A stretch of 64,000 bases of DNA, taken from assembly GCA_011390935.1 (NCBI GenBank), contig JAABRL010000006.1:57020-121019 (forward strand), read 5' to 3'. Source of the stretch: Gemmatimonas sp. Its GTDB lineage: Bacteria; Gemmatimonadota; Gemmatimonadetes; Gemmatimonadales; Gemmatimonadaceae. Shown piece after piece: positions 31,930 to 50,406 of this stretch; the stretch's first letter is position 1, and every line of letters starts with the position of its first letter. Made by a program: the position numbers and the translations under genes. The notes below the pieces were generated by a model. The model ran no database searches, was not told the DNA's origin, and saw only the letters and a program-made list of their open reading frames with translations.

Positions 31930-33360
31930 TCACGGGCGCAGCCCGAACTGCGTCCAGAAGAGCAGCATGACACACTCCGATTCCGCAAAGGCCGCGTAGC
32001 GATCGGGCGCGTACGCGACCGACCGATAGATCTCCACCGCAGCCAGCTGGTCGACCGCCACGGAGTGCAGCTCCTCGAGCGTGGCCGGGAAGCCATCGAG
32101 CAGGATGGTCGCCTGACAGCTGGTGACCCCCAGCGACCGGCCGCGGCCGGAGACCGCGAATTTGGCCGCGTCCGTCTCGCCCGACGGGGTGGTGATCTCC
32201 AGGCCCGGCACCATCTCGAGCGCGGCGCGCAGCGAACCCGCCTCGCGGATCTGGACGGTGTCCACAAATGTGGCAAGCCCTTCGCGGCGGCGCAGCTCGA
32301 ACTCTTCCCGGTCGCGCCGAAGGACACGCCGTTCCGTAACGGCGAAGCCTTCGAGCCCCGCGATCGAGAGCCCACGCTCCAGCGGGACGACCACGTCGGG
32401 CGTGCTGGCGAAGAGCACATCCACCTGCTGCATCCCGCTCACATACCCCCCCGCTTCCGCGCTCAGCATGCGCGACCCGGGCGGCACCTGCGGCATCGTG
32501 AAGCGGCCGGCGCTGTCGGTGACGGCCGCGCTATCCACACCATCGATGTTCACCACGGCCCCGGCGATCGGCTGCAGGTCCGGGGCGATCACACGTCCGG
32601 TAAGCGTGGGCCAGCGGTCGATCGGGCCATCCGCAGGGGCCATGACCACATCCACTCGGCGCAAGGGCCGGTCGGTGAGCGAGACGCGAAGCGCACTCGA
32701 GGCGTATTCGGTGGAGAGCGCGATCATGGCCAGCTCCCCCACGTTCGGCACGCCGCAAATGGCGAAGCTGCCCGTGGAGTCGGTCACGGCGTCGCGCTCC
32801 TCGAGCTGCAGCAGGCGGGTTCGCGGCAGGATCGCCTCCCACTGCACGCGAATGCCGGCCCCGCCCACCCGCGTACGGTCGTCGGGGAGACGCGTGGACC
32901 CGATCAGCACGCCGCCGTTCTCGCCGGCCGGTCGCGGCTCGCCGCACACCGCGTCCCAGATCGTTTCCATGGACGGAATCGCCACGGTGAAGCCGTCCCA
33001 ACGGGTGGCATCGGCAGGGCGTTCGGCCACCAGGGCGCCAAAGCCGATCTCGTCGAGCGCCTCGTGATACACGGTGACCTTGGTGATACGACCGTCGGCC
33101 ACGACGGTGAAGCGCCCGAGCGAGTCGGTGCTCACGTTGGCGCCACCCGGTTCCGCGAGTACGAAGGCCTCCACGAGTGGCACATTGGAGACGCTGTCAA
33201 ACACCACGCCGCGCACGGTGTCTGGAGCGGCGCGCAGCGCCACCGTGCGCGGCGTCGAGCCGGCGGCGGCGGTGGCACGGCCGATCTGGGGCGCGGCGAG
33301 CGCAATGACGCCCAGCAGCAGGGCGGCGCGGCGGGCGCGCACGAAGGGGGGCAGAGTCAT
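31930..33360 (-). CDS. secreted carboxypeptidase-regulatory-like plus TonB-plug protein without a barrel (paralogue A)
   Basis: The protein is 476 residues from ATG 33360, with a signal-like N-terminus. Two or three carboxypeptidase-regulatory-like modules are visible (about 45-95, 160-220, 255-320; for example GVVFDSVSNVPLVEAFVLA). A TonB-dependent-receptor plug follows (about 370-476) with CQATILLDG and the closing CVMLLFWT at the very end. The membrane barrel that normally follows the plug is absent: the chain stops seven residues after the WT. It is a tandem duplicate of the gene at 33426-34802 and a relative of the gene at 48266-49063. The function is unknown. Confidence 0.7.
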   Translation of the reverse strand: MTLPPFVRARRAALLLGVIALAAPQIGRATAAAGSTPRTVALRAAPDTVRGVVFDSVSNVPLVEAFVLAEPGGANVSTDSLGRFTVVADGRITKVTVYHEALDEIGFGALVAERPADATRWDGFTVAIPSMETIWDAVCGEPRPAGENGGVLIGSTRLPDDRTRVGGAGIRVQWEAILPRTRLLQLEERDAVTDSTGSFAICGVPNVGELAMIALSTEYASSALRVSLTDRPLRRVDVVMAPADGPIDRWPTLTGRVIAPDLQPIAGAVVNIDGVDSAAVTDSAGRFTMPQVPPGSRMLSAEAGGYVSGMQQVDVLFASTPDVVVPLERGLSIAGLEGFAVTERRVLRRDREEFELRRREGLATFVDTVQIREAGSLRAALEMVPGLEITTPSGETDAAKFAVSGRGRSLGVTSCQATILLDGFPATLEELHSVAVDQLAAVEIYRSVAYAPDRYAAFAESECVMLLFWTQFGLRP

Positions 33361-33425
33361 CCCGGAAAGATTGCCATAACGGCGTGCTGGCGGCACCGGG
33401 GACGCCGTGATTTGCGGCTCGCCAC

Positions 33426-34802
33426 CTATGGACGCAGCCCGTTCTTGGTCCAGAAGAGGACGACCGCGCAGTCGTTGCCCCCAATGGGGATGTAGCGCGC
33501 CGGGGCCAGAGCGGTGGATGCGAAGAACTCGATGGCCGCAAGGTTGCGCGGCGGAATGACATTCACGTCGTCGATGGTGGCCAGCGTCCCGTCGAGGTAG
33601 ACGTAGGCGGCGCAGCCGCGTCGCCCCCGAATCACGAACTCACTCGTGCCCCGTCGCCCCTGCTCCACGTTGATCCCCTGCGTCATCTGCATCGCGGCTC
33701 GCAGGTTGGGCGCCCGCATGATCGTGGTGGAATCGAGCGTGCGCCCCATGCCGGTGCGCTTGCGCAGTTCGAACTCCCCGCGCTCACGCGTCACGTTCAC
33801 GCGTTCCGTGATCGTGACCCCCTCGATCTGCACGACCTTTTCGAAGGGGATCGTGATCGGCGGATTCTCGCCGGCCATGACCTCCACCAGCTGCCCCACG
33901 GGTTGATACCCGACGGCGCGCACGTACAGCATGCGCGAGCCCGTGGGTACGTCGGGAAACACGAACCGACCGTCAGTGCCGGTGACCTGCGCATCGGTCA
34001 CGCCCTCGAGCGCGAGCTGCACGTTGGAGAGCGGGGTGCCATCGTTGTCGCGCACGAGGCCCCGCACGGCGCCCCGCTCGTCGGCTGCGCCGAGTACGAG
34101 GTCGATCCGTCGAAGCGGCCGAATGTCGCTGGTGACGGTGACGACCCCCGATTGCATCTCCTGCGACAGCGCGAGAAAGGAGATGTCAACGAACTCCTCC
34201 ACGCCGCAAATGAGGAAGTTGCCCAGCGAGTCGGTGAGGGTCTCCTCGGATCGCAGGTCGGGGCCACCGGTGGCGTAGTCGGGCTTGGGCCACTGGACGA
34301 TCACCTTGGCGCCGGCCACGCGCGTACGACCATCGGCGGCGCGGGCCGTGCCCGTCACGATCACGGATCGCCCACCCAGCGGGCGGCGCGAGTCGCACAG
34401 TTGGGGCCAGACCGTGAGCAGCGAGGGGGTGCTGATGGTCACGGCGCGGCGACGGTCGTCCGGGCGTTCCGCCACGAGCGCGCCCAAGCCGATGCGGTCG
34501 AGCACTTCGTGGTAGACAGTGATGCGCGTGGTGATGGTATCCGAGAGCAGCTCGAAGGAGCCGGTCGAATCGGTCACGGTGGTGGCACCGCTGGGCATGG
34601 CGACGACGAGCGCGCCCGCCAACGGCTCCGCGGCCAGACTGTCGAACACGATACCGCGTGCGGTATCCGCGGCGCTGCGCGCGCGCACGGTATCGAGCAC
34701 CGGCGGCGGCGGGTCCTGGGCACGAACCGTGTTCGGCAGCGCCACCGCGCCCGCCAGGCAGCACAGGGCCCGAAGCAGGACGCGCAATGGAGAGGTGGTC
34801 AT
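33426..34802 (-). CDS. secreted carboxypeptidase-regulatory-like plus TonB-plug protein without a barrel (paralogue B)
   Basis: The protein is 458 residues from ATG 34802 with a cleavable signal (ALPNTVRAQ). It is collinear with paralogue A: GIVFDSLAAEPLAGALVVA, the ITVYHEVLDRIGLGALVAER block shared almost word for word, ICGVEEF, then a plug domain. It ends with CAAYVYLDG and CAVVLFWTKNGLRP. As in paralogue A, no barrel follows. The two genes share direction and are 65 bp apart, so they probably form an operon. A plug alone cannot form a channel, so a role as periplasmic binding or decoy protein is a guess. Confidence 0.7.
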   Translation of the reverse strand: MTTSPLRVLLRALCCLAGAVALPNTVRAQDPPPPVLDTVRARSAADTARGIVFDSLAAEPLAGALVVAMPSGATTVTDSTGSFELLSDTITTRITVYHEVLDRIGLGALVAERPDDRRRAVTISTPSLLTVWPQLCDSRRPLGGRSVIVTGTARAADGRTRVAGAKVIVQWPKPDYATGGPDLRSEETLTDSLGNFLICGVEEFVDISFLALSQEMQSGVVTVTSDIRPLRRIDLVLGAADERGAVRGLVRDNDGTPLSNVQLALEGVTDAQVTGTDGRFVFPDVPTGSRMLYVRAVGYQPVGQLVEVMAGENPPITIPFEKVVQIEGVTITERVNVTRERGEFELRKRTGMGRTLDSTTIMRAPNLRAAMQMTQGINVEQGRRGTSEFVIRGRRGCAAYVYLDGTLATIDDVNVIPPRNLAAIEFFASTALAPARYIPIGGNDCAVVLFWTKNGLRP

Positions 34803-34909
34803 GGCGGGATGGGCGAGGCAGGAAGGTCGGGCGCTGCGGCTGGTACTCGTGACATGGATCACGAGTTCCGTTGCTCCCCCCAACAGTACGGCGCCCGTTA
34901 CGTTGTCGC

Positions 34910-36160
34910 ATGACCGAAGGCACGCTACCGTCATCGTTTCGTTTCCGAACCGCGCACGCGGACGGTTCTGCCCGTCTCGGGTGGTTCGACACCCCGCACG
35001 GTGAGGTGCACACACCGGCGTTCATGCCGGTGGGCACACACGGCGCAGTGCGTGGACTCACGGTCCACGATGTCGAGCGCGCGGGCGGGCGCATGCTGCT
35101 CGCGAATGCGTACCACCTGTACCTGCGCCCCGGCGATGAGGCGGTGCGCGCCCTGGGCGGCCTGCACGCGTTCACGCGCTGGAACGGCCCCATGCTCACC
35201 GATTCGGGGGGCTTTCAGGTGTTCTCGCTGGCCAAGCTGCGGGCCGTGCGTGAAGAGGGTGTGGAGTTTCGCAGCCACCTCGACGGATCGCTGCACCAGT
35301 ACACGCCCGAGGGCGTGATGCGCATCGAGCGCAACCTCGGCGCGGACGTGATCATGCAGCTCGACGAGCTCATCGCGGGTGGCGCGGACGTGTCTGCATC
35401 GCGAGCGGCCATGGAGCGCAGTCTGCGCTGGCTCGAACGCTGTCGCGTGGAGTTCGAGCGCTTGTCGCACCAAGGGCGAGCACCGGTCGCGCCGATCGCG
35501 CACGAGGACAGTCTGCCACCGCTCGCCACGCACGATGTGGTGCGTGATCTGATCGCGCCGCCACAGGCGCTGTTTCCGATTGTGCAGGGCGGCACGCACG
35601 ACGACCTGCGCCGCGCCTCGGTGCGCGGCATCCTCGACACGGGCGACTGGGTGGGGATCGCAGTGGGCGGACTGTCGGTAGGTGAGGCCAAGCCGGCGAT
35701 GTATCACACCGTGGCGGTCTGTGACGCCGACCTCCCGCGTGATCGCCCGCGCTATCTCATGGGCGTGGGCTTCCCGGACGACCTCGTGGAATGCGTGGCC
35801 CGTGGCGTGGACCTGTTCGATTGCGTGGCGCCATCACGCATGGGCCGTGATGGCACGGCGTTCACCCCCGACGGCAAGGTGCAGATCCGGCTCGGCGCGT
35901 TCCGCTACGATCGGCGTCCGCTGGTGGAGGAGTGCCCCTGCGAAGCGTGCACGCATTACGACCGCGCGTTTCTGCGGCACCTGTTCGTGTCGCATGAACC
36001 GTTGGGCCCTCGCCTGCTCGCGCTGCACAATGTGGCCTTTGTACTCGAGCTCATGCGCCAGGCGCGCGAACAGCTGCGCGCGGGTACGTTCGCCGCATGG
36101 AGCGCAGCGTGGCTTACGCGCTATCGCGCCCTCGCGACGAAGCGCGAGTCGGTGGTGTAG
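34910..36160 (+). CDS. tgt: tRNA-guanine transglycosylase
   Basis: The protein is 416 residues from ATG 34910. It swaps guanine at the wobble position of certain tRNAs for the queuine precursor preQ1. Key residues are visible: Asp98 in LTDSGGFQ, the loop GGLSVGE (254-260), nucleophile Asp304 in FDCVAPSRMGRDG, and zinc ligands Cys342, Cys344 and Cys347 with His373 (the Cys-to-His spacing of 26 matches E. coli). Length is slightly longer than E. coli Tgt. It overlaps the convergent MscS gene by 47 nt. No queF, queC or yajC neighbour is visible. Confidence 0.9.
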   Translation: MTEGTLPSSFRFRTAHADGSARLGWFDTPHGEVHTPAFMPVGTHGAVRGLTVHDVERAGGRMLLANAYHLYLRPGDEAVRALGGLHAFTRWNGPMLTDSGGFQVFSLAKLRAVREEGVEFRSHLDGSLHQYTPEGVMRIERNLGADVIMQLDELIAGGADVSASRAAMERSLRWLERCRVEFERLSHQGRAPVAPIAHEDSLPPLATHDVVRDLIAPPQALFPIVQGGTHDDLRRASVRGILDTGDWVGIAVGGLSVGEAKPAMYHTVAVCDADLPRDRPRYLMGVGFPDDLVECVARGVDLFDCVAPSRMGRDGTAFTPDGKVQIRLGAFRYDRRPLVEECPCEACTHYDRAFLRHLFVSHEPLGPRLLALHNVAFVLELMRQAREQLRAGTFAAWSAAWLTRYRALATKRESVV

Positions 36161-37532
36161 GCGTGGTGTCGAGCAGGTTGGCCTCATCGTCATGCCGACG
36201 GTCGGCCTCGATCTGCTCGTCGAGCGTCCGATCGACCGAGACATCCGACGCCGTTCGTGTGTGGGGCGACGTCGGCGGCCGCGCTGGCCCCAACTGGGTC
36301 GCCGCCGCGATCTCTCCACGCATCTCCACCCCGAACTCGGGCGAGGGCATGGTGAGCCCCGCATCCTCGAGGTGCGCCTTCACCATGCGAATCGCTTCAC
36401 TGCGCACGCGCAGGTACTCGGTCTGATGCTGATCGAGCCAGCCGGCGAAGCTCATGGTCACCGTCGAATCGCCGAGCGCGGTCACGAGCACCTCCGGCGG
36501 CGGTGAGCGCAGCACGCCATCGGTGGCCAGCAGCGCCGTCACGCCCACGTCCCGCGCGCGAATGAGATCGTCGCCGGTCCCGATGCCGGCCTCGAACTCG
36601 AAACGACGTAGCGGATTGCGCGTGAAGTTCACGAGCGGGCTGCGAAAGATCATCGCGTTGGGCAGGCGCACATGATTGCCGTCGGCGCGCATGAGGATCG
36701 TCTCGCGCGGGGTGAGCCGCACCACCTTTCCTTCGAACGTGTCCACACGAATCTGGTCGTTCTGCGCGAAGGGCTGCCGCAGCGCGAGCAGCACACCGGC
36801 AAGATAGTTCTCGGCGATATCCCGGAACGCGAGGCCGACCGCGAGGCCGGCCAGTCCCGCGGTGCCGACCACCGCGCCCACCAGCGCGGTTGCCCCGAGC
36901 AGGTCGAGCGCCAGCACCAGGCCCAGCACCACGAGCACCGCCTGAAGTGCGCGACGAATCAGTCCCTGCAGGAACGGATTGCGTGTCTGCAGGATGGACG
37001 GGCCGCGCCAGCGCGCGAGCAGGGAGCCGGCCACGATCGAGAGCGTCAGAATGACGAGCGACACCGCGAGCAATGGCAGTTTGGCCACGGCGCCGTACGC
37101 CAACTCGCGCAACCGCGCCCAGGTGGGCCGCAACTGCTCCTCGAGCGACGTGGATTCATCGATCCGATTGTCGACAAATCGCACATCTTCCATCGACGAC
37201 ACCAGCTCGACGGCCCGGCGACGGATCTCGGCATTGGCCACGATGCCCTCCAGTCGCACCACGCCCGCATCCACGTGCACGGTGAGGTCACTCAATGACG
37301 GGACCCGATCGAACAGGGCTTGCAGATCACTGCGAATGCGCTCGTCGATGACAGCGCGTTCTTCACTGACCGGCTCCGGGACGTCGAGCACCTGCATACC
37401 ACTCGTATCCGTGCGCAGGCTATCCGGCGGTTCGGTCTCTTGCGACGACACGACGACCTGCGCATCGACGACGGCACCCGAGGTCGCCATCGACAACAGC
37501 ACCACCAGCACACACGTCACGAAGCGTCGCAT
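36114..37532 (-). CDS. MscS-family mechanosensitive channel with N-terminal BON domain
   Basis: The protein is 472 residues. A signal peptide ends near VVDAQ, a BON-type domain follows (about 60-125, VHVDAGVVRLEGIVANAE), then three or so membrane helices (about 150-240), and the MscS core (GLAVGLAFRDIAENYLAGVL, then RQPFAQNDQIRVD). BON domains are known to bind membranes or lipoproteins, so this channel may sense the periplasm as well as tension. The tail after about residue 410 is polar and probably cytoplasmic. It lies 8 bp after the fusion gene at 37541-41401, so the two form an operon. Confidence 0.8.
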   Translation of the reverse strand: MRRFVTCVLVVLLSMATSGAVVDAQVVVSSQETEPPDSLRTDTSGMQVLDVPEPVSEERAVIDERIRSDLQALFDRVPSLSDLTVHVDAGVVRLEGIVANAEIRRRAVELVSSMEDVRFVDNRIDESTSLEEQLRPTWARLRELAYGAVAKLPLLAVSLVILTLSIVAGSLLARWRGPSILQTRNPFLQGLIRRALQAVLVVLGLVLALDLLGATALVGAVVGTAGLAGLAVGLAFRDIAENYLAGVLLALRQPFAQNDQIRVDTFEGKVVRLTPRETILMRADGNHVRLPNAMIFRSPLVNFTRNPLRRFEFEAGIGTGDDLIRARDVGVTALLATDGVLRSPPPEVLVTALGDSTVTMSFAGWLDQHQTEYLRVRSEAIRMVKAHLEDAGLTMPSPEFGVEMRGEIAAATQLGPARPPTSPHTRTASDVSVDRTLDEQIEADRRHDDEANLLDTTPTPPTRASSRGRDSA

Positions 37533-37540
37533 GCTGCAAG

Positions 37541-40500
37541 CTACCGTGCGACTGGCCGGAACGTGAGGTAGTCGAGCAGCACGCGCGTCTCCCCGCGCGA
37601 GTCGTCGGAATCGGACTGCATGGTGATACCGATCACTTCGAACGACTCCAGTGCGGCATCCGGGAAGGCGCGCTGGACGTCGGCGGCGAAATCACGAGAC
37701 AGGGCATGCCACGCGCCATCCGCATCAGGCGCGCCCACGTTCACGAGCCACGCCTCCGGCAATCGCGTGACGAACACATTGCGACGGGACGCGGAGGCTT
37801 CGAGCAGCGCGCCATCCGCCGGCACGCGACCGTCACGATCGGGGGCGGCCCACGTGTAGCCGAACAGTCGCGTCGCTCCGTTCTCGCGCTCGCGCAGCAC
37901 GAACCACAGCTTGAACGCGGCATCGTTCGCGCCCCGTCGTTGCCGACCGGGGTCCACGCCCCGCACATTCTCGAGCACGCGCAAGCGCAGATCGACCGCG
38001 CGGAACTCCTCGGGACGAAAGCGATAGCCGATCGTGGTCATCTTGATCGCGCTGCGCTGCGTTGCGAATTGACAGGCGCGACCGCTGCTCGATCCGTCGG
38101 CGGCGGTGAGGGCGATGCCATCGTCCGGATGCCCTTCCTGCCCCCCGTTGCTGGCGTCGTAGAGAAACTCGTACTCCCGTCGAAACCCCACGATGTCCTG
38201 CTGATCGCAGCGCAGACTGAAGCCGTCCGGATGCGTCTGTCGCGTTATCGGGCGCACGTGCACACGCGCAAACGCATCAGCGGACCCCATGCGAAATGTC
38301 GTCGTGGGCGTCCAGCCGGTACTGCCGCCCGGCATCGGCTCGGGCATACGTAGCGCGGTCGCAAACGGAGGAACGCGCACCTGCTCGCGTCGGCGCGTCG
38401 CATGTTTGCGACGCCAGCCCTGCTGCGCCGCACGCCAGCGATCGGCGCTGGCAGGTTCGAGCACTCCCAGTTCGCCAAGCGTGAGGACCACGGCCTCAAG
38501 GAACGCCTCCTGCGGGAACGACGACGCCGCGATCCCGGCGATATGGTCCGCGGCGACCGTGCCGAGGTCTACCGCTGGCATCGACGCGGGGAAGCGCGAG
38601 GCGCTCAGGGCGACCACGCCATCGTTGGGCTCGGTGAACTGTCCGATGCGCTTGGTCACCTTCATGAAGGGGTGCGCCACACGCGCATCACTCGTGAACG
38701 ATAGCGAGAAGTACGGCACGCGCGCCGCCAACGCCTCTTCGTGTTCCGCCCAGAACGATGCGCGCGCGGCGGGCCAGAGCGACGAGGCTGCGGGCGATGC
38801 GTCGCAGGCCGTCGGCGTCGGTGAGGTCACCGCATTCGACAGCAGTTCCCGAGGCAGCGGCGCACGCTCCGCCACCGGCGAGCCGAGATGCGGCGTGGCG
38901 ATGGTGACCAGTGCAACGATGTGATCAGCGGCCATCGACGAGTCCGCGAGCAGTGCATGCGTGGCGTCAACGCCCCCTTTGGAGTAGCCGAGCAGCAGGT
39001 AGCGAGGTGATGCGTACCCCCGGGTCAACCGGCGCTGTGTGTCAGTCCGTAGCGCCTGCAACAGCTGTGGAGCGTTGTACTCGGCGCTGCAGCGTCCATC
39101 GACGGGCACGGTGAGCGTGCGCGTACCCAGGCGATCGCGCACGGCCTTCAGACCGCGTTGCCACAGCTCGCCGTCGAACAGTTCACCATAAATCCCGGGC
39201 ACCAGCACCACGGTCACATCCGACAGATCGGGCGTGTACAGCATGGGCGGTGTGGCAGGCTCGATGTCGCGCCACAGGCGACGTTCCGCGAACACCTCGC
39301 GAAACAGTGAGGCCGCGATGGCAGGTTGTTCGAGCACGCGGCGGGGCTCGCTTCGCACGCGGTGGCGATCGCGTGAGAACCACCGCTCCGCCGCTCGCCC
39401 GTCACGCGGGTCGGTCACGCTATCGGTTTCGGGCTCATACAGCGCGGCATCGAGGAAGTACGGAAGCGTCCACGCAGCCATCGTTGCCCGACGCAGCGGA
39501 GCCGCGCGACCCGGATCGCGCTCGATCTGCGTGCTGTCACTCGGCGTCCATGCGGCGCGCAGCTCTGCCAGCGGCGCTAGCGCGGGCACGTCGCGCAACC
39601 GTGATTCCGCAACGCGGAGGCGCGCATCGACACGGTCGGTGTCCAGTCCGTCGGCAAGCGCGAGCAGTGAATCCACGCCACTTCCGAGGCCGAGCAGCAC
39701 ATCGGCCTCGGCGATGAGCGACCGGGACGTGCGCACGCGGTCGGTGAGCGATTCGGAGTGATTCGAGGGCATCGTGTCGCGCCACCCCCCGATGAAATCA
39801 CGCAGCGCGTCGAACGTGAAATAGCCCATCGATTCCACGATCGGACGGGCGCGACGCAGAAACGCGGCGTCGTGCGACGTTTCGGTGCGTCCCGTCGGCA
39901 GCATGGCGGTCGATCGACGCAACTGTCGCGCTCGTACCACGGCATTGGACGCCGTAAGCGCCTGCGCGTGCGGAAACAGCGCGTGAGGGTCCACACCCAT
40001 CACCTGCGTGACTTCATCCGCGCGTACCGTCGATGGCAGCGGCGCGCTGTTCGATGCCAGCACCCCCAGCGTGGCCCGCGCCGACAGCGAACCGTGGGTC
40101 CGCACCATGCGCACGACGCGGCCGAAGTCGCCGGCATGCGCGTAGCCATCGGCGAGATTCACGATGAGATCCGGCGCGTTGGCCACCTGCTTTTCGGCGC
40201 TTTGCACCAACCGGTACGGGGCATCGGGATAGGCCCCACGCTCTGTCGCAGCGCGCAGGACCGCATCGGAGACCCACTGCGCGGCGGTCGGTGCGGCGTG
40301 CAGCGAATCCTCCACACCCAGCGGGTTGCCGTGAATCGGTGTGTAGGCAAAGGCGTACGTGTCATCGGCTGTGCGCCGCCACCGCAACTCGGCCTCGGCG
40401 CCATCTCGGCCGAGCACCACGATCACACGATCTCGATCGCGTACCTCGAGCCATGTGGCGAGCGTCACGCCCGTCTCGCGCAGCGCCTCCCGCGCGAAAC

Positions 40501-41401
40501 GCCGACGCCGCGAGAGATCGGGAAAGTACGTGTTCACCATGGACGCGAGTGCAATGGTCACCACCGCCACCTCGTTCGCCCCGGTCACCGTCCCCGTGTC
40601 GCGTCGCACGAGACCCGCCCGGACGATCGCGCTGTCCAGCGAGACCGGCGTGAGATACGACTCGGTGTCTCCCTCCGCGAACGCGCCGGCGTTGCCGTGA
40701 TCGGAGACGAGCCATACATCCGGATGCACGCCGCGCGCCGCCAGCGCAGCGAGCACGCGCGTGAGCATGCGGTCGAATTGCTCCAGAAACGGATGGAGTT
40801 CCTCGAGATGCGTATGCGCCATTGCGTCGGTGCCGCTCACGTACGCGGCATAGTGATCGCCCGTAAACCCCGCGACGATATCCCGCTCGATTTCGGCCAG
40901 CTCGTCGGTGAAGAGCCGCTGACCGGGGAAGTACATGAGCGGCTCGATCAGTGGATCGAAGTACGTGTCGAACGCACGCATGTAGTTGTAGGGCCCCGCC
41001 TGACGCTCGATGACCTGCCGCGGGTCGTCGGCCACCCGCATCGCATCGAGATCGAACCACCGCGCTTCGACGGTGCGAATGTTGCCCCGCGCACCAAACA
41101 CGCGTGACGTGCCAAGGATCTCCGCCCACGCCGGGTGACTCATGCTCGGATACGGCGCGATCATGGGCGCCGCATGGCGAAACTGCGGCAACAGCCCGCG
41201 CGATTGTGCGAACACGAACGCGTCCCAGCTCAGCCCATCCACCGCGAGCAAGAGGCGTGGTGGCGCAGCGGACGACTGCGAGTCGCGCGGCGTCGATGCG
41301 CCAACAACCATGCCAGCGAGCGCGACTCGCGGACTCGGCATCATCAGCCCGAGCACGAGGAGCGCGCGTAGCAGCAACCATCGGCGAGTGAGAGACCGCA
41401 T
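37541..41401 (-). CDS. AlkP-superfamily phosphodiesterase fused to a GXSXG serine hydrolase and a DUF3047-like domain
   Basis: The protein is 1,286 residues with a signal peptide (about 1-35). N-terminal domain (45-445): metal and nucleophile residues of the alkaline phosphatase / nucleotide pyrophosphatase superfamily, with Asp55 (AVDGL), Ser88 (PSMSHP) as likely nucleophile, Asp192/His196 (GTDAMAH), Asp234/His235 (SDHG) and His436. A linker region follows (450-725). An alpha/beta hydrolase comes next (about 728-960): VVLVPGIYGELF, nucleophile elbow GYSKG (Ser807), Asp927 in NDGVV and His953. The tail (about 1060-1286) resembles DUF3047. Predicted to act on phosphodiesters and esters of the envelope. 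ATG 41401 chosen as a signal peptide follows directly. MscS is next in the operon. Confidence 0.75.
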   Translation of the reverse strand: MRSLTRRWLLLRALLVLGLMMPSPRVALAGMVVGASTPRDSQSSAAPPRLLLAVDGLSWDAFVFAQSRGLLPQFRHAAPMIAPYPSMSHPAWAEILGTSRVFGARGNIRTVEARWFDLDAMRVADDPRQVIERQAGPYNYMRAFDTYFDPLIEPLMYFPGQRLFTDELAEIERDIVAGFTGDHYAAYVSGTDAMAHTHLEELHPFLEQFDRMLTRVLAALAARGVHPDVWLVSDHGNAGAFAEGDTESYLTPVSLDSAIVRAGLVRRDTGTVTGANEVAVVTIALASMVNTYFPDLSRRRRFAREALRETGVTLATWLEVRDRDRVIVVLGRDGAEAELRWRRTADDTYAFAYTPIHGNPLGVEDSLHAAPTAAQWVSDAVLRAATERGAYPDAPYRLVQSAEKQVANAPDLIVNLADGYAHAGDFGRVVRMVRTHGSLSARATLGVLASNSAPLPSTVRADEVTQVMGVDPHALFPHAQALTASNAVVRARQLRRSTAMLPTGRTETSHDAAFLRRARPIVESMGYFTFDALRDFIGGWRDTMPSNHSESLTDRVRTSRSLIAEADVLLGLGSGVDSLLALADGLDTDRVDARLRVAESRLRDVPALAPLAELRAAWTPSDSTQIERDPGRAAPLRRATMAAWTLPYFLDAALYEPETDSVTDPRDGRAAERWFSRDRHRVRSEPRRVLEQPAIAASLFREVFAERRLWRDIEPATPPMLYTPDLSDVTVVLVPGIYGELFDGELWQRGLKAVRDRLGTRTLTVPVDGRCSAEYNAPQLLQALRTDTQRRLTRGYASPRYLLLGYSKGGVDATHALLADSSMAADHIVALVTIATPHLGSPVAERAPLPRELLSNAVTSPTPTACDASPAASSLWPAARASFWAEHEEALAARVPYFSLSFTSDARVAHPFMKVTKRIGQFTEPNDGVVALSASRFPASMPAVDLGTVAADHIAGIAASSFPQEAFLEAVVLTLGELGVLEPASADRWRAAQQGWRRKHATRRREQVRVPPFATALRMPEPMPGGSTGWTPTTTFRMGSADAFARVHVRPITRQTHPDGFSLRCDQQDIVGFRREYEFLYDASNGGQEGHPDDGIALTAADGSSSGRACQFATQRSAIKMTTIGYRFRPEEFRAVDLRLRVLENVRGVDPGRQRRGANDAAFKLWFVLRERENGATRLFGYTWAAPDRDGRVPADGALLEASASRRNVFVTRLPEAWLVNVGAPDADGAWHALSRDFAADVQRAFPDAALESFEVIGITMQSDSDDSRGETRVLLDYLTFRPVAR

Positions 41402-41474
41402 GGCGGCACGGTGCACCGCCGCGCCGCCGAGGGCAAGCGCCGGCGGCCTGCCTGGCGCAAATTGCACGCCGCAT

Positions 41475-42107
41475 ATGGCTGATCTCCTCTCCCCCTACCT
41501 TCCATTGCTGCGCGCCGCGGCGGAGCGCGCCAGTCGTGTCCCCGATGAGGCCGAGGACCTGCTGCAGGATGCGTTGCTCGAAGCGTTGCGTGTGGGGCGC
41601 GGCGATCTCTCTCAAGCGGCGAACCAGCGCTGGCTGCTTGGCACCATTCGCAACCTGGGGCACATGACCGCCCGTGGCGCGGCGCGACGGCGGCGGCGCG
41701 ACACGCACTACGCGCTGGAGCAGTCGCTGCAGCAATCGGGATCGACGCTGCCTGCGCACGAGGCGCATCGCCCGCTGCGCGCGTGGCTCGAGGCGCTGCC
41801 GCCGTCGCTCCGGCGCGTGGCCGAGCTGGCACTGGCGGGGCACGATCGACAGGAGATCGCCTGGCTGCTCGGCATCGGCCAAGTGACGCTCCGCCAACGG
41901 ATTGTCGCCCTTCGCAAGCGCGTGGTCGCGTGCGAGACGGGGCTGCCCGGGGTCGCCGCGGAGCGGGAGCCGGCCGAACTCTCGTTGCGCCTCGGCCTCA
42001 TTCGGCGCGCGCTGCTCCCGGTGGTCCGTGCGCGGGACGCGGCCGGCGTGCACGATCCGGACGGCCACCTGATCCTCCTCGCGGGACGCCCGCGGAAGGC
42101 CACGTGA
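41475..42107 (+). CDS. ECF-type sigma-70 family factor
   Basis: The protein is 210 residues from ATG 41475. Region 2 reads VPDEAEDLLQDALLEALR (about 22-39), and region 4 is the HTH HDRQEIAWLLGIGQVTLRQR (about 133-152). The C-terminal 45 residues after region 4 are an extension not needed in a standard ECF factor. No anti-sigma gene with a zinc or membrane domain follows directly; the next gene is a VOC protein. It is divergent from the fusion gene by 73 bp and could control it. Confidence 0.75.
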   Translation: MADLLSPYLPLLRAAAERASRVPDEAEDLLQDALLEALRVGRGDLSQAANQRWLLGTIRNLGHMTARGAARRRRRDTHYALEQSLQQSGSTLPAHEAHRPLRAWLEALPPSLRRVAELALAGHDRQEIAWLLGIGQVTLRQRIVALRKRVVACETGLPGVAAEREPAELSLRLGLIRRALLPVVRARDAAGVHDPDGHLILLAGRPRKAT

Positions 42108-42192
42108 TCCCGACCTCACGTTTCGACGCGCGGCGGCAACTGTATCGGTCCACCAGATGCTGTTCTCCCCTTTCAGACCTCAGGAGCCTCCC

Positions 42193-42573
42193 ATGATTCC
42201 CTCGCCCCGCATCGGCAATATCTTCTTCTTCGTCTCGGACGTGGACCGCACCGAGCGGTTCTATCGCGACGTGATCGGGCTGGCCGTCGAGCGCATGCCC
42301 GACGACGGCAGCGGCAACGCGTGGCTCAACGCCCCGATCCCCGGCAACGTGGATCTGATCTTCTTTCAGGGAGACGTGCAGGCGGGCAACTCGCCGATTC
42401 TGGTCTTCGACCTGGCTGAGGGGGGCATCGATGGCGTGGTGGACGCACTGGCGAAGGCTGGCACCACGATCGTCACGCCGGTGAGCCATGCCCCCGGCGG
42501 CTGGTCCTCGGAGTTCGCCGATCCGGACGGGTATATGCTCTCGCTGTACCAGACGAACACCGTACCGCGGTGA
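42193..42573 (+). CDS. VOC-fold (glyoxalase/bleomycin-resistance-type) protein
   Basis: The protein is 126 residues from ATG 42193, with AGGAG 6 nt upstream. It has the two beta-alpha-beta-beta-beta repeats of the vicinal-oxygen-chelate fold: IGNIFFFVSDVDRTERFYRD at the N-terminus and EFADPDGYMLSLYQ at the C-terminus, which normally carries the last metal ligand. VOC members include glyoxalases, resistance proteins and dioxygenases; the substrate is unknown. Confidence 0.75.
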   Translation: MIPSPRIGNIFFFVSDVDRTERFYRDVIGLAVERMPDDGSGNAWLNAPIPGNVDLIFFQGDVQAGNSPILVFDLAEGGIDGVVDALAKAGTTIVTPVSHAPGGWSSEFADPDGYMLSLYQTNTVPR

Positions 42574-42618
42574 CCGACTCGCGCTCCGGGCGGGTGAGAG
42601 GATAGCTTCTGACGGTGC

Positions 42619-42637
42619 CGCGGCCGGAGAGGCCGCG
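42619..42637. terminator. short hairpin after the VOC gene
   Basis: CGCGGCC (42619-42625) and GGCCGCG (42631-42637) form a 7-bp stem with loop GGAGA. No T-run follows, so its efficiency is doubtful. It lies in the 96-bp gap before the hypothetical gene at 42670. Confidence 0.35.
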
Positions 42638-42669
42638 CGCCTTCCTTCCTCCCACCCTTCCGGACCACG

Positions 42670-43077
42670 ATGCGACACGCCCTCATGTACATCGGTGCTT
42701 TCGAACGCAACTTCGCGAACCTCACGCCCGAGACGGACTCGTTCGAAGGCACTGATGGGGCGCAGCACGCCTATCCGGCCTGGCCGTCGAGCGCCGACGG
42801 CCTGCGCATCGGCTACATGGAGAAGACGGGCAAGAAGTTCGTCGCCGTGCGGGTGGCCGACTCGGTGAACAATGTGATCCTCGAGAACGAACAGATCCTC
42901 ATCCCGGGTCAGCACTTCGGATTTGGCGCGCGCCTCAGCGCCGAGCCGACGTCGGTAGAAGACAGCACCGCGATCCTGCAGCTGCTCGAGGACATCATGA
43001 AGAAGAACAAGAGCAAGGGCGAAGAGCTCATGCTGATCCGTACGCGCCTGAAGGCATCCATGGCGAGCAAGCGTTGA
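42670..43077 (+). CDS. hypothetical protein, 135 residues
   Basis: I do not recognise a family. There is no signal peptide or membrane segment. It contains an internal stretch GYMEKTGKKFVAVRVADS (about 49-66) and a lysine-rich helical end (MKKNKSKGEELMLIRTRLKA). The repeated Val-Asn/Glu strand pattern suggests a small mixed fold. It is bounded by hairpins at 42619-42637 and 43105-43135, so it is probably a single-gene transcript. Confidence 0.5.
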   Translation: MRHALMYIGAFERNFANLTPETDSFEGTDGAQHAYPAWPSSADGLRIGYMEKTGKKFVAVRVADSVNNVILENEQILIPGQHFGFGARLSAEPTSVEDSTAILQLLEDIMKKNKSKGEELMLIRTRLKASMASKR

Positions 43078-43104
43078 TCGCGTAGCGACGGCGAGTGGCA
43101 CCGG

Positions 43105-43135
43105 CCGCAGAGTCAGGGAATGACTGACTCTGCGG
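43105..43135. terminator. perfect 12-bp hairpin after the hypothetical gene
   Basis: CCGCAGAGTCAG (43105-43116) and CTGACTCTGCGG (43124-43135) pair perfectly with a 7-nt loop (GGAATGA). There is no T-tract on either side. It lies between the hypothetical gene and the second histidine kinase, both on the plus strand. Confidence 0.6.
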
Positions 43136-43186
43136 TGGTGCATTCCGCTTTGCGAAGCGTCGTGCCGTGACCGATACTCCCCTTCC

Positions 43187-45259
43187 ATGCGCGCATCGGC
43201 CTTTTCGCTTTCCACGACCGAAGCACTCTCCCCCGAGTCATTTCGCCGGTGGGCTGTCGCGGGTGCGACGCTGGCTGCCGTCGCGTACTCGCTCGTGGCG
43301 GCGGTGGCCTTCTGGCAAGCTGGTGGTGTGGGCGCGTTTTCCCCGTACACGCAGCTGATCGCAGCGATCGCGTGCTGGGGCGCGGCGTTGGTGGCCACCA
43401 CCGGCCAGGCGCGACTGGGCGTGATGCTTACGCTCGCCGCCGTCTGGCTCGAGGTGCACGCGGGGTTCGTGATGGCGCCGGCGTTTCCCGCTCCCGGCTT
43501 GCTCGTCGCGCCCGTACTGGTGACCGCGAGCGGGTTGCTGCTTGGTCAACGCGCGGCACTGCTGGTTGCCCTGTCGTCTGTCGCGGCTGCGACGCCCCTG
43601 TACCTCTGGGGCCTGGAGCGTTCTGCCGCGACGGTCTCGCGCGGTGACCTGTACTGGCTCACGGTGCACGGCACGGTCACGCTCGCCGCATGGGGGCTGA
43701 TCGCGATCAGTCTCGCGGCGCTGCAGCGCGTGGTGCGCGCCGTACGGCACCATGAAGGCGAGCTCTCCGACATGATCGAGTTCGCCCCCGATGGCATCGT
43801 CGTGGTCGGCGGCGATCATCGGGTCCGCCTCGTGAATCCGGCCGCAGAACGATTGCTCGGACTCACGGCGCGCGACTGCGTCGGACAGTCGATCGAGGAC
43901 ACTCTCACGAAGGCCGGTGGGGTCGCGCACGCGGCGGATGCCGACGTGGGCACACGGGGCGCCGACACGACCTGCGCGTACACGTTTACCCGCCCCGCGC
44001 AGACGGCCTGCTACGTCGATATTGCCTGGCGCACGCTCGGTCCCGATCGGCGGCAGCTGGTGCTGCGCGATGTGAGCGAACGGGTGCGAGCCGAGCAGGC
44101 GCGACGCGATGCGGAGGCACAGCTCGCGCACACGCAGCGACTGGAAGCGATCGGGATGCTCGCGGGCGGCGTGGCGCATGACTTCAACAACGTGCTCACC
44201 ACCATCGGTGGCTCGGCCCATCTGTTGCGCGACGAATCCGATGAGGAGCACCGCGTCACGCTGCTCGACGAGATTGAAGTGGCGCAGGAGCGGGGGGCGA
44301 CGCTCACGCGACAACTGCTGGCGTTTGCGCGCCGTGATGTGGTGTCGCCCGAAGTACTCGATCTCGGCACGCTGGTCACCGAATCGCAGCGACTGCTGCA
44401 GCGGCTGGCCGGTGAGCGCATTCCAATCTCATGTGATGTGGCACCCGACGTGCGCGTGCGCGCCGATGTCTCGCAGCTCGAGCAGGTGCTGGCCAACCTG
44501 ATCACGAACGCGCGCGATGCGATGCCCGACGGTGGTACGTGCACGCTGTCCGTGCGTGCGCACACCGATGCGGACGGCACCCGCTGGGCCCGCTTGCGTG
44601 TGTCCGACACCGGCATCGGCATGAACGCGCGCACGGCCGCGCGCGCGTTCGAACCGTTTTTCACCACCAAGGACCGAGGACAAGGGACCGGTCTCGGCCT
44701 CGCCTCGGTGCACGGCATCGTGCTGCAGAGCAGTGGTCGCGCACACATCGAATCCGCCCCGGGCGCAGGCTCGAGCATCGTACTCGATTTTCCTCGTGTG
44801 GATGCGCCGCTTGATACACCGCGTCACCGCCATTCGACAACCCCGTACGAAACGCGCGGCGTTGGAACCGTGCTCGTGGCCGATGATGATGACGGCACGC
44901 GCGCCGTCGTCGGTCGCATTCTGCAGCGTGCCGGGTACCGAGTACATCTCGTACCCGATGGCATGCAGGCCTTGCGTCAACTGGAGTCCGATCCGTCGGC
45001 CTTCGACCTGCTCGTAACCGACGTGGTGATGCCGGGACTCACCGGACCACAGCTCGCGGCACGCGTGCGCGAGAGGCAGCCCACGCTGCCGATTCTGTTC
45101 ATGTCGGGCTACCCGGAAGACGCTCTTGATGAGCTCGAACGGCTCGGCGACAGCACGGGGTTTCTCAGCAAGCCCTTTTCCGGATCAGAGTTGACGCAGC
45201 GCGTCGCCCAGCAGCTGCGTGGCCTGGACACGTCGAGGGGAACACGCGACTGCCCGTAG
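43187..45259 (+). CDS. membrane hybrid histidine kinase with PAS and receiver domains
   Basis: The protein is 690 residues. Five or so membrane helices (about 23-180) form an unknown sensor. A PAS domain follows (about 190-295, FAPDGIVVVGGDHRV), then the phospho-acceptor His331 in GGVAHDFNN, an HATPase with GQGTGLGLASVHG (about 498-510), and a receiver (Asp612 in VTDVVMPG, Lys662). This is the layout of PAS hybrid kinases with an AHDFNN-type HisKA. No separate response regulator is adjacent, and the phosphate acceptor beyond its own receiver is unknown. The next gene is a barrel protein on the same strand. Confidence 0.85.
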   Translation: MRASAFSLSTTEALSPESFRRWAVAGATLAAVAYSLVAAVAFWQAGGVGAFSPYTQLIAAIACWGAALVATTGQARLGVMLTLAAVWLEVHAGFVMAPAFPAPGLLVAPVLVTASGLLLGQRAALLVALSSVAAATPLYLWGLERSAATVSRGDLYWLTVHGTVTLAAWGLIAISLAALQRVVRAVRHHEGELSDMIEFAPDGIVVVGGDHRVRLVNPAAERLLGLTARDCVGQSIEDTLTKAGGVAHAADADVGTRGADTTCAYTFTRPAQTACYVDIAWRTLGPDRRQLVLRDVSERVRAEQARRDAEAQLAHTQRLEAIGMLAGGVAHDFNNVLTTIGGSAHLLRDESDEEHRVTLLDEIEVAQERGATLTRQLLAFARRDVVSPEVLDLGTLVTESQRLLQRLAGERIPISCDVAPDVRVRADVSQLEQVLANLITNARDAMPDGGTCTLSVRAHTDADGTRWARLRVSDTGIGMNARTAARAFEPFFTTKDRGQGTGLGLASVHGIVLQSSGRAHIESAPGAGSSIVLDFPRVDAPLDTPRHRHSTTPYETRGVGTVLVADDDDGTRAVVGRILQRAGYRVHLVPDGMQALRQLESDPSAFDLLVTDVVMPGLTGPQLAARVRERQPTLPILFMSGYPEDALDELERLGDSTGFLSKPFSGSELTQRVAQQLRGLDTSRGTRDCP

Positions 45260-45356
45260 GGTAAAACGCGACATGTCACGTCAAGCGCCCTGTCGCGACG
45301 TGTCGTGTCCTTCCGTGTGCGTACTCCGCGGAATCGTTTCCTTACACCCGATCTCC

Positions 45357-47471
45357 ATGACATTCCGACTTTTTTCGCCCCCGCGCATGCGGCTGGCGCG
45401 CTCCGTGGCGTTCGCTTGCGTGGCGTCACTCGTGAGCACAGCGCTCTCGGCGCAGACCGTGGGCATTTCGCTCGTCCCGTCGGCGCAACGTGTCGATTGG
45501 AACGACGAGCTGCCGTTTGCGACCGACTGGCTTTATGGTGGCCGCGTGGCGCTGCAATTCGGGAAGTTTGTCGAGTTGCAGCCGTTCTACTTCATGCGCA
45601 ACGGATTCGGTCTCGACTCCACGAAGATCGCATCGCGATTCGGCCCCGCCGCACTGGGACGCACGCTCGACCTGCAGCACTACGGCACGAGCGTGCAGTT
45701 CAACCTGGGCGATGGCGGTGTCGTGCCATTCGTGCGAGCGGGAGCGGGCGTGCTTCGGCTGGAGCCGGAAGACAGTGAACGACAGGATCGCATCACCGTG
45801 AGCGCCGGTGGAGGGTTCCGCTTTGGTATCGCGGGGCTCAACGCCGAACTGTTCGCCGAACAGATGTCGTTCCGCATGAATCCGCAGTCGCTGTTCGGTC
45901 CGGACACCTCGGCCGGTGCATCGCTGCCCACATTGCGCAACTTCGTGTATGGCGCGGCCGTCACGTTGCCCATCTCGACGCCGAGCAATCTCGACCGCGA
46001 CAGCGACGGATTGCGCGGCACCACGTCGCCGATTGAGCCGTTCGTTGGCGTGCTGCGCTATGCCGGCGCGCACAACCTGCCGAATCAGGAGCTCGCTGGC
46101 GTGCGCGCGGGCATCGATTTTTCGCCGGTGTTCGGCGTGCGCGGCTTCTACTGGCGCGGTGTGAACGATGATCGCAATGGTCCGGCCGATGTCGCGGGCT
46201 ATGGTGGTGAGGCGCAGTTCAACCTCAACACGGGCCCCGGCATTTCGCCGTTTCTCGTGGTCGGCGCCGGTCAGCTGGATTACAACGCCAACTTCCGCGA
46301 TTCGCTCGGCAACACGCGCGATGACAAGACCGCGTTCATCATTGGCGGCGGCGCCAGCGTACAGTTGTCCGATCGCGTGCGTCTCAACGGTGCCATTCGC
46401 GATTACATCATGACCACCGACGAGTCGCTCGACAACGTGGCCACCACTGGTGACCTCACGCACAACACCATGATCACCGCGGGTCTCACGATCAGCTTTG
46501 GTGGTCGCACGCAGGCGAGCGATCGCCGCGGCATGGCAACGCGCGATGATCGACGCACCAGCGCGCGAGAGACGCCGATCGAACGCGAGCTTCGCGAAGT
46601 CGAAGCGCTGCGCGAGGAGCGTCTGATGCGCGCCATTCGGGCCGAGCGTGAGGCGCTGGAACGCGAGGCGCGAGCCGAACGCGCGACGCCGGACGACGCC
46701 CGTCGCCGGCTGGACGACGCCCGCGTGGTGCCGCGCACCATCACCGGCAGCGACTCGGTGCGCTACATCACGGTGCCCGTGCCCACGCAGGGCGAGATCA
46801 TCCTGCGCTACGGGCTGCCGGCGCGCGACAGCGGGGTGGTTCGCCGCGATAGCGTGGTGGTGACCCCCGGCACCCCTGCTGGCGACATGCTCGCCCGCCT
46901 GGCGGAAATCGAGCGCCGTCTCACGGCACGCCTCGACGCGATCGAACGCCAGCAGGCCGGTACGCCGGGCGCGCAGGCGCCCGTGGTGAACATGGTCACG
47001 CCGAGTGGTGAGCCCGTGGTGGTCGATCGTGCAAACCGCCCCGTGTTCCAGCGCTTTGGCCAGGTACGCTCTCGTGACCTGCAGCCGTACGCCGGTTTCG
47101 GCATTCGCGATGGGGACGCGCAGATCATTCTGGGCGCGCGTGCCGACCTGGGCCCGATCAATCCCGGCAGCGGTCTGCACTTCGTGCCGGAGCTGGCCGT
47201 GGGCTTCGGCAGCGGTCCGTTCTCGGTGCTGGCGCTGGCCAACGTGCAGTACGCGTTCGGTGCCATGGGTGGCAATCGCAGCATTCGCCCGTACGTCACG
47301 CTCGGCGGCGGCGTGTACTCGCCCACCGTGCTCGGCATCAACACGGCGATCGGTTCGTCGTTCCGATTGCAGCCGCAGGCGGCACGTCCGCTGTTCCTGA
47401 ACGTGGAGCTGCAGAGCATCAACCTCGGCGGGCAGACCCGCCTACTGTTCGGTCTGAGCCGTTCGCAGTAA
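45357..47471 (+). CDS. outer-membrane protein with two barrel-like domains joined by a coiled coil
   Basis: The protein is 704 residues from ATG 45357, with a signal peptide ending ALSAQ. Residues of about 30-380 form a barrel-like region with OmpA-like strands (VQFNLGDGGVVPFVRAGAG, in parts), including a calcium-type acidic loop DRDSDG. A highly charged helical segment lies at about 400-500 (IERELREVEALREERLMRA and so on). The C-terminal region (about 570-704) has further barrel strands (DLQPYAGFGIRDGDAQIILGA, in parts). Paired barrels around a coiled coil are unusual. It is followed by a strong terminator. Confidence 0.65.
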   Translation: MTFRLFSPPRMRLARSVAFACVASLVSTALSAQTVGISLVPSAQRVDWNDELPFATDWLYGGRVALQFGKFVELQPFYFMRNGFGLDSTKIASRFGPAALGRTLDLQHYGTSVQFNLGDGGVVPFVRAGAGVLRLEPEDSERQDRITVSAGGGFRFGIAGLNAELFAEQMSFRMNPQSLFGPDTSAGASLPTLRNFVYGAAVTLPISTPSNLDRDSDGLRGTTSPIEPFVGVLRYAGAHNLPNQELAGVRAGIDFSPVFGVRGFYWRGVNDDRNGPADVAGYGGEAQFNLNTGPGISPFLVVGAGQLDYNANFRDSLGNTRDDKTAFIIGGGASVQLSDRVRLNGAIRDYIMTTDESLDNVATTGDLTHNTMITAGLTISFGGRTQASDRRGMATRDDRRTSARETPIERELREVEALREERLMRAIRAEREALEREARAERATPDDARRRLDDARVVPRTITGSDSVRYITVPVPTQGEIILRYGLPARDSGVVRRDSVVVTPGTPAGDMLARLAEIERRLTARLDAIERQQAGTPGAQAPVVNMVTPSGEPVVVDRANRPVFQRFGQVRSRDLQPYAGFGIRDGDAQIILGARADLGPINPGSGLHFVPELAVGFGSGPFSVLALANVQYAFGAMGGNRSIRPYVTLGGGVYSPTVLGINTAIGSSFRLQPQAARPLFLNVELQSINLGGQTRLLFGLSRSQ

Positions 47472-47526
47472 GGGCAGTACGAACGGGAATGCCTGACTGC
47501 TGACGCCGTCAGGTCACCGCATGTTC

Positions 47527-47575
47527 AAGGAGCGCGCACACCGGCAGGATGGTGTGCGCGCTCCTTGCCGTTTTT
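47527..47575 (+). terminator. strong rho-independent terminator after the two-barrel gene
   Basis: AAGGAGCGCGCACACC (47527-47542) and GGTGTGCGCGCTCCTT (47551-47566) make a perfect 16-bp stem with an 8-nt loop, followed by GCCGTTTTT. It sits between the barrel gene and the next gene. Because it lies before 47597, it argues for the later start of that gene. Confidence 0.85.
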
Positions 47576-47596
47576 CCAGTCGCCCACGAGCCGCTC

Positions 47597-48175
47597 ATGT
47601 CTGCGCCGTTCAGCCCCGAGTCGTTTCGCACGTTCGCCGCGGTTGCCTTGCGCCCTGTGCTGCCCGGGCTGCTGCTGGGGGTGTGCACTCTGGCCTTCGG
47701 CTTCGGCATGGGTGCGGTGTTCGGACTCAACGAAGCGCTCATCAGGGATCGGCTGGCGGGTTCGGCCGCGGCGGTGGCCGCCACGGTATATCAGGGCGAC
47801 GCGGCGGCTTCAAAGGCCGTGGTGGACAAATCGTGGACGTACATGCAGCGCGCGCACCTGCATGCGGGCAGTCTCGGGGCCGTGGCGGTGGTGCTCTCGC
47901 TCGTGCTCGTGCTGCTCGGCACGGGGCCGGCGCTCGCGCGCACACTCAGCGTGGGACTCGGCGCCGGCGGGCTCGGCTACTCCGTGTTCTGGATGTGGGC
48001 GGGGTTCATCGCACCGGGGCTGGGCAGCACGGGGGCGGCTAAGGAGTCGCTCAAGCTGCTGGCGATGCCGGCGTCGGGGGCGGTCTCGATCTCCACGGTG
48101 ATCGTGGCGGTGCTGGTGGCGCGGGCCTGGTTGTCGCCGTCTTCCAACGCGATCCCGGCGGTCGGCCGGATCTAG
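47597..48175 (+). CDS. four-helix membrane protein
   Basis: The protein is 192 residues from ATG 47597. Four hydrophobic stretches are visible (about 17-44, 91-111, 120-139 and 160-180). No family is recognised. An upstream in-frame start at 47549 lies inside the terminator hairpin at 47527-47566, so the later ATG is preferred. It is followed by a plug protein gene 90 bp on. Confidence 0.5.
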   Translation: MSAPFSPESFRTFAAVALRPVLPGLLLGVCTLAFGFGMGAVFGLNEALIRDRLAGSAAAVAATVYQGDAAASKAVVDKSWTYMQRAHLHAGSLGAVAVVLSLVLVLLGTGPALARTLSVGLGAGGLGYSVFWMWAGFIAPGLGSTGAAKESLKLLAMPASGAVSISTVIVAVLVARAWLSPSSNAIPAVGRI

Positions 48176-48265
48176 CCGCGCATCCACAGACGCTGCATAT
48201 TTTTTGAATACCCCGCCCGGGCATCCCCGCCCGGACTCCGTGCCGCGGGTCGGCGGGAGGTCGCC

Positions 48266-49063: not shown

Positions 49064-49090
49064 ACCCGAGCAGCGGTCACGATCGCGTGA

Positions 49091-50173: not shown

Positions 50174-50406
50174 CGGGGCATCCCCTGAAAATGTCGAGCC
50201 GACACGCATCGCGTCCTGCGAACCCGCGCCGTCCCAGCGGGTAGCAGAACCGTCGCGCCAATGAGCCGTGCAGTGTGCGAAGGTAACGTCGCGTCTCGTC
50301 CCAGTCAGTTGCGGTCTGCACACCGTGACGGCGTTGCGACATACGGTCACGTGAGCGAACGTTCAGCAGGGCCCTGTCTCCCTGGTGATTCCCCCTACCC
50401 TGACGC

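Follow-up and report, generated by a model that had tools for sequence, protein, structure and literature searches.

Within the 64,000 nucleotides of Gemmatimonas sp. contig JAABRL010000006.1 analyzed here (the window), one gene encodes a single chain in which an alkaline-phosphatase-superfamily (AlkP) domain of the nucleotide pyrophosphatase/phosphodiesterase (NPP) type is followed by a helical middle region, an esterase domain like MGS0156 and a DUF3047-like tail. This architecture is real and conserved. The fused protein is a new combination of already known kinds of parts and not a new kind of system. The combination looks to be undescribed so far, as the protein was absent from the open-access literature searched on its families, its structural relatives and Gemmatimonadota. 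NCBIfam and PHROGs gave no match. We put the chances at about even that it is a bifunctional hydrolase, self-contained and exported (or anchored at the surface), that scavenges lipids and phosphodiesters in this soil-type bacterium.

The complete gene occupies 37541-41401 of the minus strand, as both its frame and its orthologs indicate, and runs uninterrupted from an ATG at 41401 through 1,286 codons to a stop at 37541-37543. An alternative in-frame start further upstream, a GTG at 41467, would give 1308 residues. The initial annotation had the coordinates right and left the strand unstated; it is minus, and the plus-strand translation of the same interval was ruled out by stops throughout. 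The chain begins with a hydrophobic segment (residues 1-29, 41315-41401, minus strand as are all parts of the gene), a putative signal peptide with AxA before residue 30, and a hydrophobic 13-mer with a mean Kyte-Doolittle value of at least 2.0 lies inside the first ~45 residues in all ten proteins checked. There follow the NPP-type domain (residues 46-475, 39977-41266), the middle region (residues 476-689, 39335-39976), predicted to be helical at low confidence, the MGS0156-like alpha/beta-hydrolase (residues 690-985, 38447-39334), a variable linker (residues 986-1024, 38330-38446) and the DUF3047-like beta domain (residues 1025-1286, 37544-38329). The middle region matched no family, and the PDB profile search returned only short, chance-like matches to it (best E 0.053).

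A genome search placed the fused gene uniquely within the window's own assembly, and 11 of the 179 genomes searched from the same bacterial family hold the gene: eight at full length and two broken at contig ends (G055 and G269), while the eleventh (G016) has suffered an in-frame loss. The full-length proteins, from the window, G326, G218, G243, G039, G079, G331 and G325, are each encoded in a single frame with the same order of parts. In four pairs of orthologs the ratio of nonsynonymous to synonymous substitution (dN/dS) was 0.11-0.17 for the AlkP part, 0.10-0.19 for the esterase, 0.06-0.24 for the DUF3047-like part and 0.19-0.28 for the middle region; in the two pairs in which it could be computed for the N-terminal segment it was near 0.9. 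By this measure both active sites are under purifying selection. Pairwise identities of four parts also correlate among eight proteins (8 of the 12 rows of our ortholog alignment, A1), with r of 0.89-0.97 and only 0-2 of 2000 permutations reaching the observed value. Such correlated divergence fits one old fusion inherited whole, though shared ancestry alone would correlate separate genes too.

So long a frame could otherwise come from separate genes joined in error during sequencing or assembly, or from a pseudogene in decay, and the breaks over contigs in G055 and G269, as well as the one relative that lost its AlkP core, could be taken in its favor. We give this explanation almost no credence, as it is refuted by the orthologs: eight are full length in a single frame, one of them (G039) from a single-contig assembly, dN/dS is well under 1, there are no internal stops, and third-position G+C is even at 0.72-0.80. 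The initial annotation had itself allowed for a sequencing fusion of two genes, a concern that falls away because independent genomes carry the same fused frame.

The AlkP part carries a catalytic set of D55, the predicted nucleophile S88 (codon 41138-41140, minus strand), D192, H196, D234, H235 and H436. Of the 12 aligned rows, 11 have D55 and S88 and 10 have the other five; the rows without catalytic residues are the two contig-end fragments and the G016 deletion, and none carries a substitution. The two-metal ligand set (D, D-x3-H, D-H, H, in that order) is kept in all rows covering the region. In the Pfam scan of the window protein PF01663 passes at 26 bits against a gathering cut-off of 23, and it was listed at E<=1 in three of the 12 ortholog rows scanned singly. 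A PDB profile search with the AlkP part alone as query gave no matches. In AlphaFold2 model A (residues 38-985, mean predicted local distance difference test score (pLDDT) 69.3), the AlkP core lies mostly at pLDDT 80-95, and the esterase reaches 80-90 in places and is weaker in others. Helices and low pLDDT characterize the middle (window residues ~479-662).

Folds were compared with Foldseek and VIA-align, the latter covering the AlkP and esterase parts. The AlkP model matches ENPP6 (5ege/5egh; Z 20.3, root-mean-square deviation (rmsd) 3.6-4.0, ~297 residues), Xanthomonas NPP (Xac NPP, 2gsn; Z 19.8) and autotaxin (Z 19.6), scores that are tied. ENPP6 and autotaxin act on glycerophosphocholine or lysolipids. 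The bacterial Xac NPP is a two-metal phosphodiesterase with a Thr nucleophile; the fusion differs in having Ser there, and Ser88, not the Thr of the NPP family, is present in all 11 rows covering that position. ENPP6, a choline-specific glycerophosphodiester phosphodiesterase, is described in PMC4757880 as alone among the ENPPs in using Ser as its nucleophile, its zinc ligands being Asp32, Ser71 and His241 for one set and Asp193, His197 and His354 for the other. The fusion resembles it in this Ser and in ligand order, the four-residue spacing from D192 to H196 being identical. By offset only, the positions of the ENPP6 choline pocket fall on His89 (Tyr72 in ENPP6), the invariant Trp92 (Tyr75), Tyr/Phe187 (Tyr188) and Ser/Gly189 (Glu190), so that by offset the pocket is matched only by aromatics at nucleophile+4 (Trp92) and five residues before the metal Asp (Tyr/Phe187). 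ENPP6 differs from the fusion's AlkP part in overall sequence (~15% identity) and in having Tyr where the fusion has His89 and Trp92; the fusion's AlkP part is moreover joined to an esterase and has a longer stretch before its last His. On these comparisons the AlkP part looks to be built like an NPP-type phosphodiesterase that shares its Ser with ENPP6.

The same bacterial family also encodes AlkP-only, lipoprotein-like proteins of ~600 residues (L012, L013, L014, L020, L026-L029, L031 and L032; L025 and L030 were left out of their alignment, A7). They are 28% identical to the fusion, carry all seven AlkP residues, have PF01663 in 11 of 11 and match the AlkP profile at 99.9% (E 6.5e-37). Unlike the fusion, they have no esterase or DUF3047 part and bear a lipobox-like Cys near the N-terminus; their C-terminal part is unassigned.

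Pfam also gave two matches to the window protein below cut-off (DUF676, 14.8 bits; PGAP1, 13.7 bits), and PGAP1 was listed in 11 of the 12 ortholog rows scanned singly. Over its positions 723-952 the family profile matched the solved metagenomic carboxylesterase/polyesterase MGS0156 (5d8m) at E 5.4e-13, and it also found BlEst2 at E 8.7e-5. The fusion's hydrolase and MGS0156 are 26-27% identical over the whole hydrolase and share the order of the triad, S807-D927-H953 in the window protein, which is invariant in 11 of 12 rows and aligned with the MGS0156 motifs. Ser807, the predicted nucleophile, lies within GYSKG (codon 38981-38983, minus strand). Fold comparison with 5d8m gave Z 20.7 in model A and Z 22.4 (rmsd 3.7, 259 residues) in AlphaFold2 model B (residues 690-1286, mean pLDDT 75.2), with other bacterial lipases ranking next at Z ~17.9. 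C771 and C866, both in the hydrolase, are likewise invariant in 11 of 12 rows; in MGS0156-type esterases a disulfide stabilizes the lid. MGS0156 has lipase and polyester activity with a Ser-Asp-His triad, according to PMC5341072 and PMC11236915. It differs from the fusion in having been solved as an enzyme of ~330 residues, tetrameric according to the latter paper, while the fusion's hydrolase is embedded between phosphodiesterase and tail.

The tail is less readily placed. The window protein scores 15.2 bits for DUF3047 (PF11249), whose cut-off is 27, so 'DUF3047-like' is the right wording. The family was listed in 10 of the 12 ortholog rows scanned singly (best E 2.5e-5), and in the ortholog from G243 it reaches 27.7 bits together with neighboring pieces. 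Profile-profile comparison (hhalign) of the tail with stand-alone DUF3047 proteins gave 97.6% (E 2.7e-12) over 141 columns, with a match at residues 1125-1284 and a W...RD..AD...AF and DSD/DTD signature in common; the truncated L009 was kept out of the tail alignment, and the DUF3047 subsets held 8 and 10 of 30 loci (L033-L062). The fusion's tail differs from DUF3047 proteins in its C-terminal position within a longer chain, in its insertions and in a pair of invariant Cys (11 of 12 rows have both C1065 and C1110). A PDB profile search with this part returned a single chance-level match (E 4). What the initial annotation observed is confirmed, and its interpretation is borne out in part: all ten catalytic residues it named lie where it placed them and are invariant in the orthologs covering them, and the domains it assigned, with both catalytic sets, find support beyond chance in Pfam, profile and fold matches and in the ortholog alignment. 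The hydrolase fold it saw in the esterase region is borne out by 5d8m, and the DUF3047 fold it proposed for the tail found its counterpart in the profile-profile match, yet stays sub-threshold in Pfam.

With Foldseek the tail resembles jelly-roll proteins (GH11, GH12 and CBM11, E about 1e-5), and the enzyme might accordingly trim a substituted glycan or glycolipid, at the cell surface or outside the cell, by taking off its ester and phosphodiester groups while the tail binds sugar. A polysaccharide deacetylase adjoins the fusion in G016 and in G039, G325 and G331 (domains were scanned in G039), two contexts that hint faintly at a glycan substrate. The jelly-roll likeness is generic, however, and comes from a model of moderate confidence; the deacetylase neighbors are 36% identical, and no homolog shared with them was found around the gene in the window, G243, G218, G079 or G055. 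We regard the glycan reading as unlikely.

In our account of an exported hydrolase that scavenges lipids and phosphodiesters, the esterase Ser807-Asp927-His953 would take acyl chains off a lipid, or hydrolyze other carboxyl-ester polymers. Two metals, probably zinc, would be held by D55/S88/D234/H235 and by D192/H196/H436, and the NPP domain would form a phospho-Ser88 intermediate and cleave a phosphodiester, for example in a leftover lysolipid or glycerophosphodiester. The beta tail would hold the enzyme on its substrate or on a glycan surface. It is plausible that both enzymes would act on one lipid: the nearest folds are ENPP6, autotaxin and the lipase MGS0156, and in the sister genome, G243, a glycerophosphodiester phosphodiesterase gene lies 51 bp upstream. 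A bolder version, which seems rather unlikely to us, has glycerophospholipid broken down in two steps on one exported chain, MGS0156-like deacylation and then ENPP6-like cleavage of the head-group phosphodiester; the intermediate would be handed between the sites, and the DUF3047-like tail would dock on membrane or aggregate.

It is possible, if doubtful, that the chain instead tethers two unrelated exported hydrolases for co-export or co-localization only, with separate substrates (esters and polyesters for one, nucleotides, pyrophosphates or sugar-phosphodiesters for the other) and no sequential reaction. Polyesters such as poly(lactic acid) and polycaprolactone are degraded by MGS0156, as reported in PMC5341072 and PMC11236915, which favors such an arrangement, as does the match of Xac NPP and the nucleotide ENPPs to the AlkP model, within 1.5 Z of ENPP6. 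The relative in G016 (L010; L077:5908-8880) points the same way: its 991-codon frame has an in-frame loss of residues ~112-437, so that residues 49-111 and those from ~438 are kept, D192, H196, D234, H235 and H436 are gone, and the esterase triad and tail are intact. A relative that retains its esterase half after losing the phosphodiesterase core implies that coupling between the activities is not obligatory. Against mere tethering, the parts stay fused and co-diverge in all eight full-length proteins, and the Ser nucleophile matches ENPP6 and not the other ENPPs.

Several observations weigh against the lipid-scavenging account. G016, if real and not an assembly error, shows the activities to be separable. 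The Glu of the ENPP6 choline pocket, three residues before the metal Asp, is absent by offset, with Ser or Gly in its place, and the window protein has no Cys before residue 771, leaving the AlkP part without the insertion-loop disulfide. Because this Glu and the Cys are missing, the AlkP part is not classifiable as an ENPP6-type choline enzyme. In addition, a glycerophosphodiester phosphodiesterase (GDPD) gene lies near the fusion in the window's genus alone, and no gene partner is common to all contexts.

The fusion was confined to the window's family (eight genomes) among 298 sampled genomes of the phylum, and its distribution is uneven even inside genera. In that search 13 genomes matched: eight with fusions, three with AlkP-only proteins, one with an AlkP-like protein (G097) and one with an esterase-like protein (G037). 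In the family search 18 of 179 matched, 11 with the fusion or its fragments and seven with only the AlkP-only relative. With the esterase part alone, nine of 249 phylum genomes matched, seven through the fusion and two weakly inside other large proteins. Among 296 genomes of the phylum, 39 contain DUF3047, mostly in frames of ~200-300 residues, a count that includes fusions reaching E 0.001. A scan of 84,980 species, made with peptide patterns of one sequence and so able to miss distant fusions elsewhere, gave three loci, which we treat as G326, G218 and G243 because coordinates and identities coincide. One of these, CALQGY020000069.1 (L003), is titled 'Candidatus Kuenenia stuttgartiensis' yet coincides with G218, of the window's family, and the title looks mislabeled. 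A tblastn search of a plasmid collection found no match to the fused protein.

The gene sits in a variable locus (34871-50350). Genomes of the genus differ in whether they have the fused gene there, and likewise genes for MscS, a sigma factor and a glyoxalase; in the window the locus further contains genes for a hybrid histidine kinase and an outer-membrane barrel. Its conserved flanks in the genus are a queuine tRNA-ribosyltransferase gene (34871-36157, plus strand) and the GDPD gene (49094-50350, minus strand). The latter is on the same strand as the fused gene and ~7.7 kb away, and in G243 the fused gene follows GDPD in the same orientation after 51 bp; this proximity in one genus leans slightly toward glycerophospholipid breakdown. 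In G145 and G217, of the same genus, the flanks are present and the fused gene is absent at that locus. The next gene downstream in the window, 9 bp away on the same strand, encodes an MscS-type channel with a BON domain (36117-37532, minus strand); it is not conserved beside orthologs, the adjacency being seen in the window only, and G145 has the MscS gene without the fused gene and ~4 kb of other DNA between flank and MscS. Divergent from the fused gene and ~75 bp away is a gene with sigma-70 region 2 (41475-42104), a homolog of which is at the same place in G217. Two adjacent genes at 31933-35015 have carboxypeptidase-regulatory and TonB plug-like domains (by Pfam only), and the frames scanned contain no complete receptor barrel.

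In other genera the neighbors vary: an M20 peptidase and HTTM with a GH18-deacetylase-GT2 protein; fumarase; NhaA with IlvD; or GT4, deacetylase and LPG_synthase_TM. Since neighbors differ across genera, the fused gene is self-contained accessory cargo. The protein beside the G039 fusion (L072:9817-13317) joins GH18, polysaccharide deacetylase and glycosyltransferase 2 in one 1,167-residue frame, with relatives in G325 and G331.

Structural relatives of known activity exist for each catalytic part, and the tail resembles a family, DUF3047, that has no assigned activity. The fusion ties DUF3047 to esterase and phosphodiesterase chemistry, providing a testable hint for that family. If glycerophospholipid were indeed broken down in two steps on this chain, it would be a bacterial one-chain counterpart of the animal route through extracellular phospholipase and ENPP6. 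Were the activities coupled, the relation to MGS0156 would also make the protein relevant to polyester-degrading enzymes, and the fusion would dismantle phospholipids on a single chain, which bears on how Gemmatimonadota recycle phosphorus and choline.

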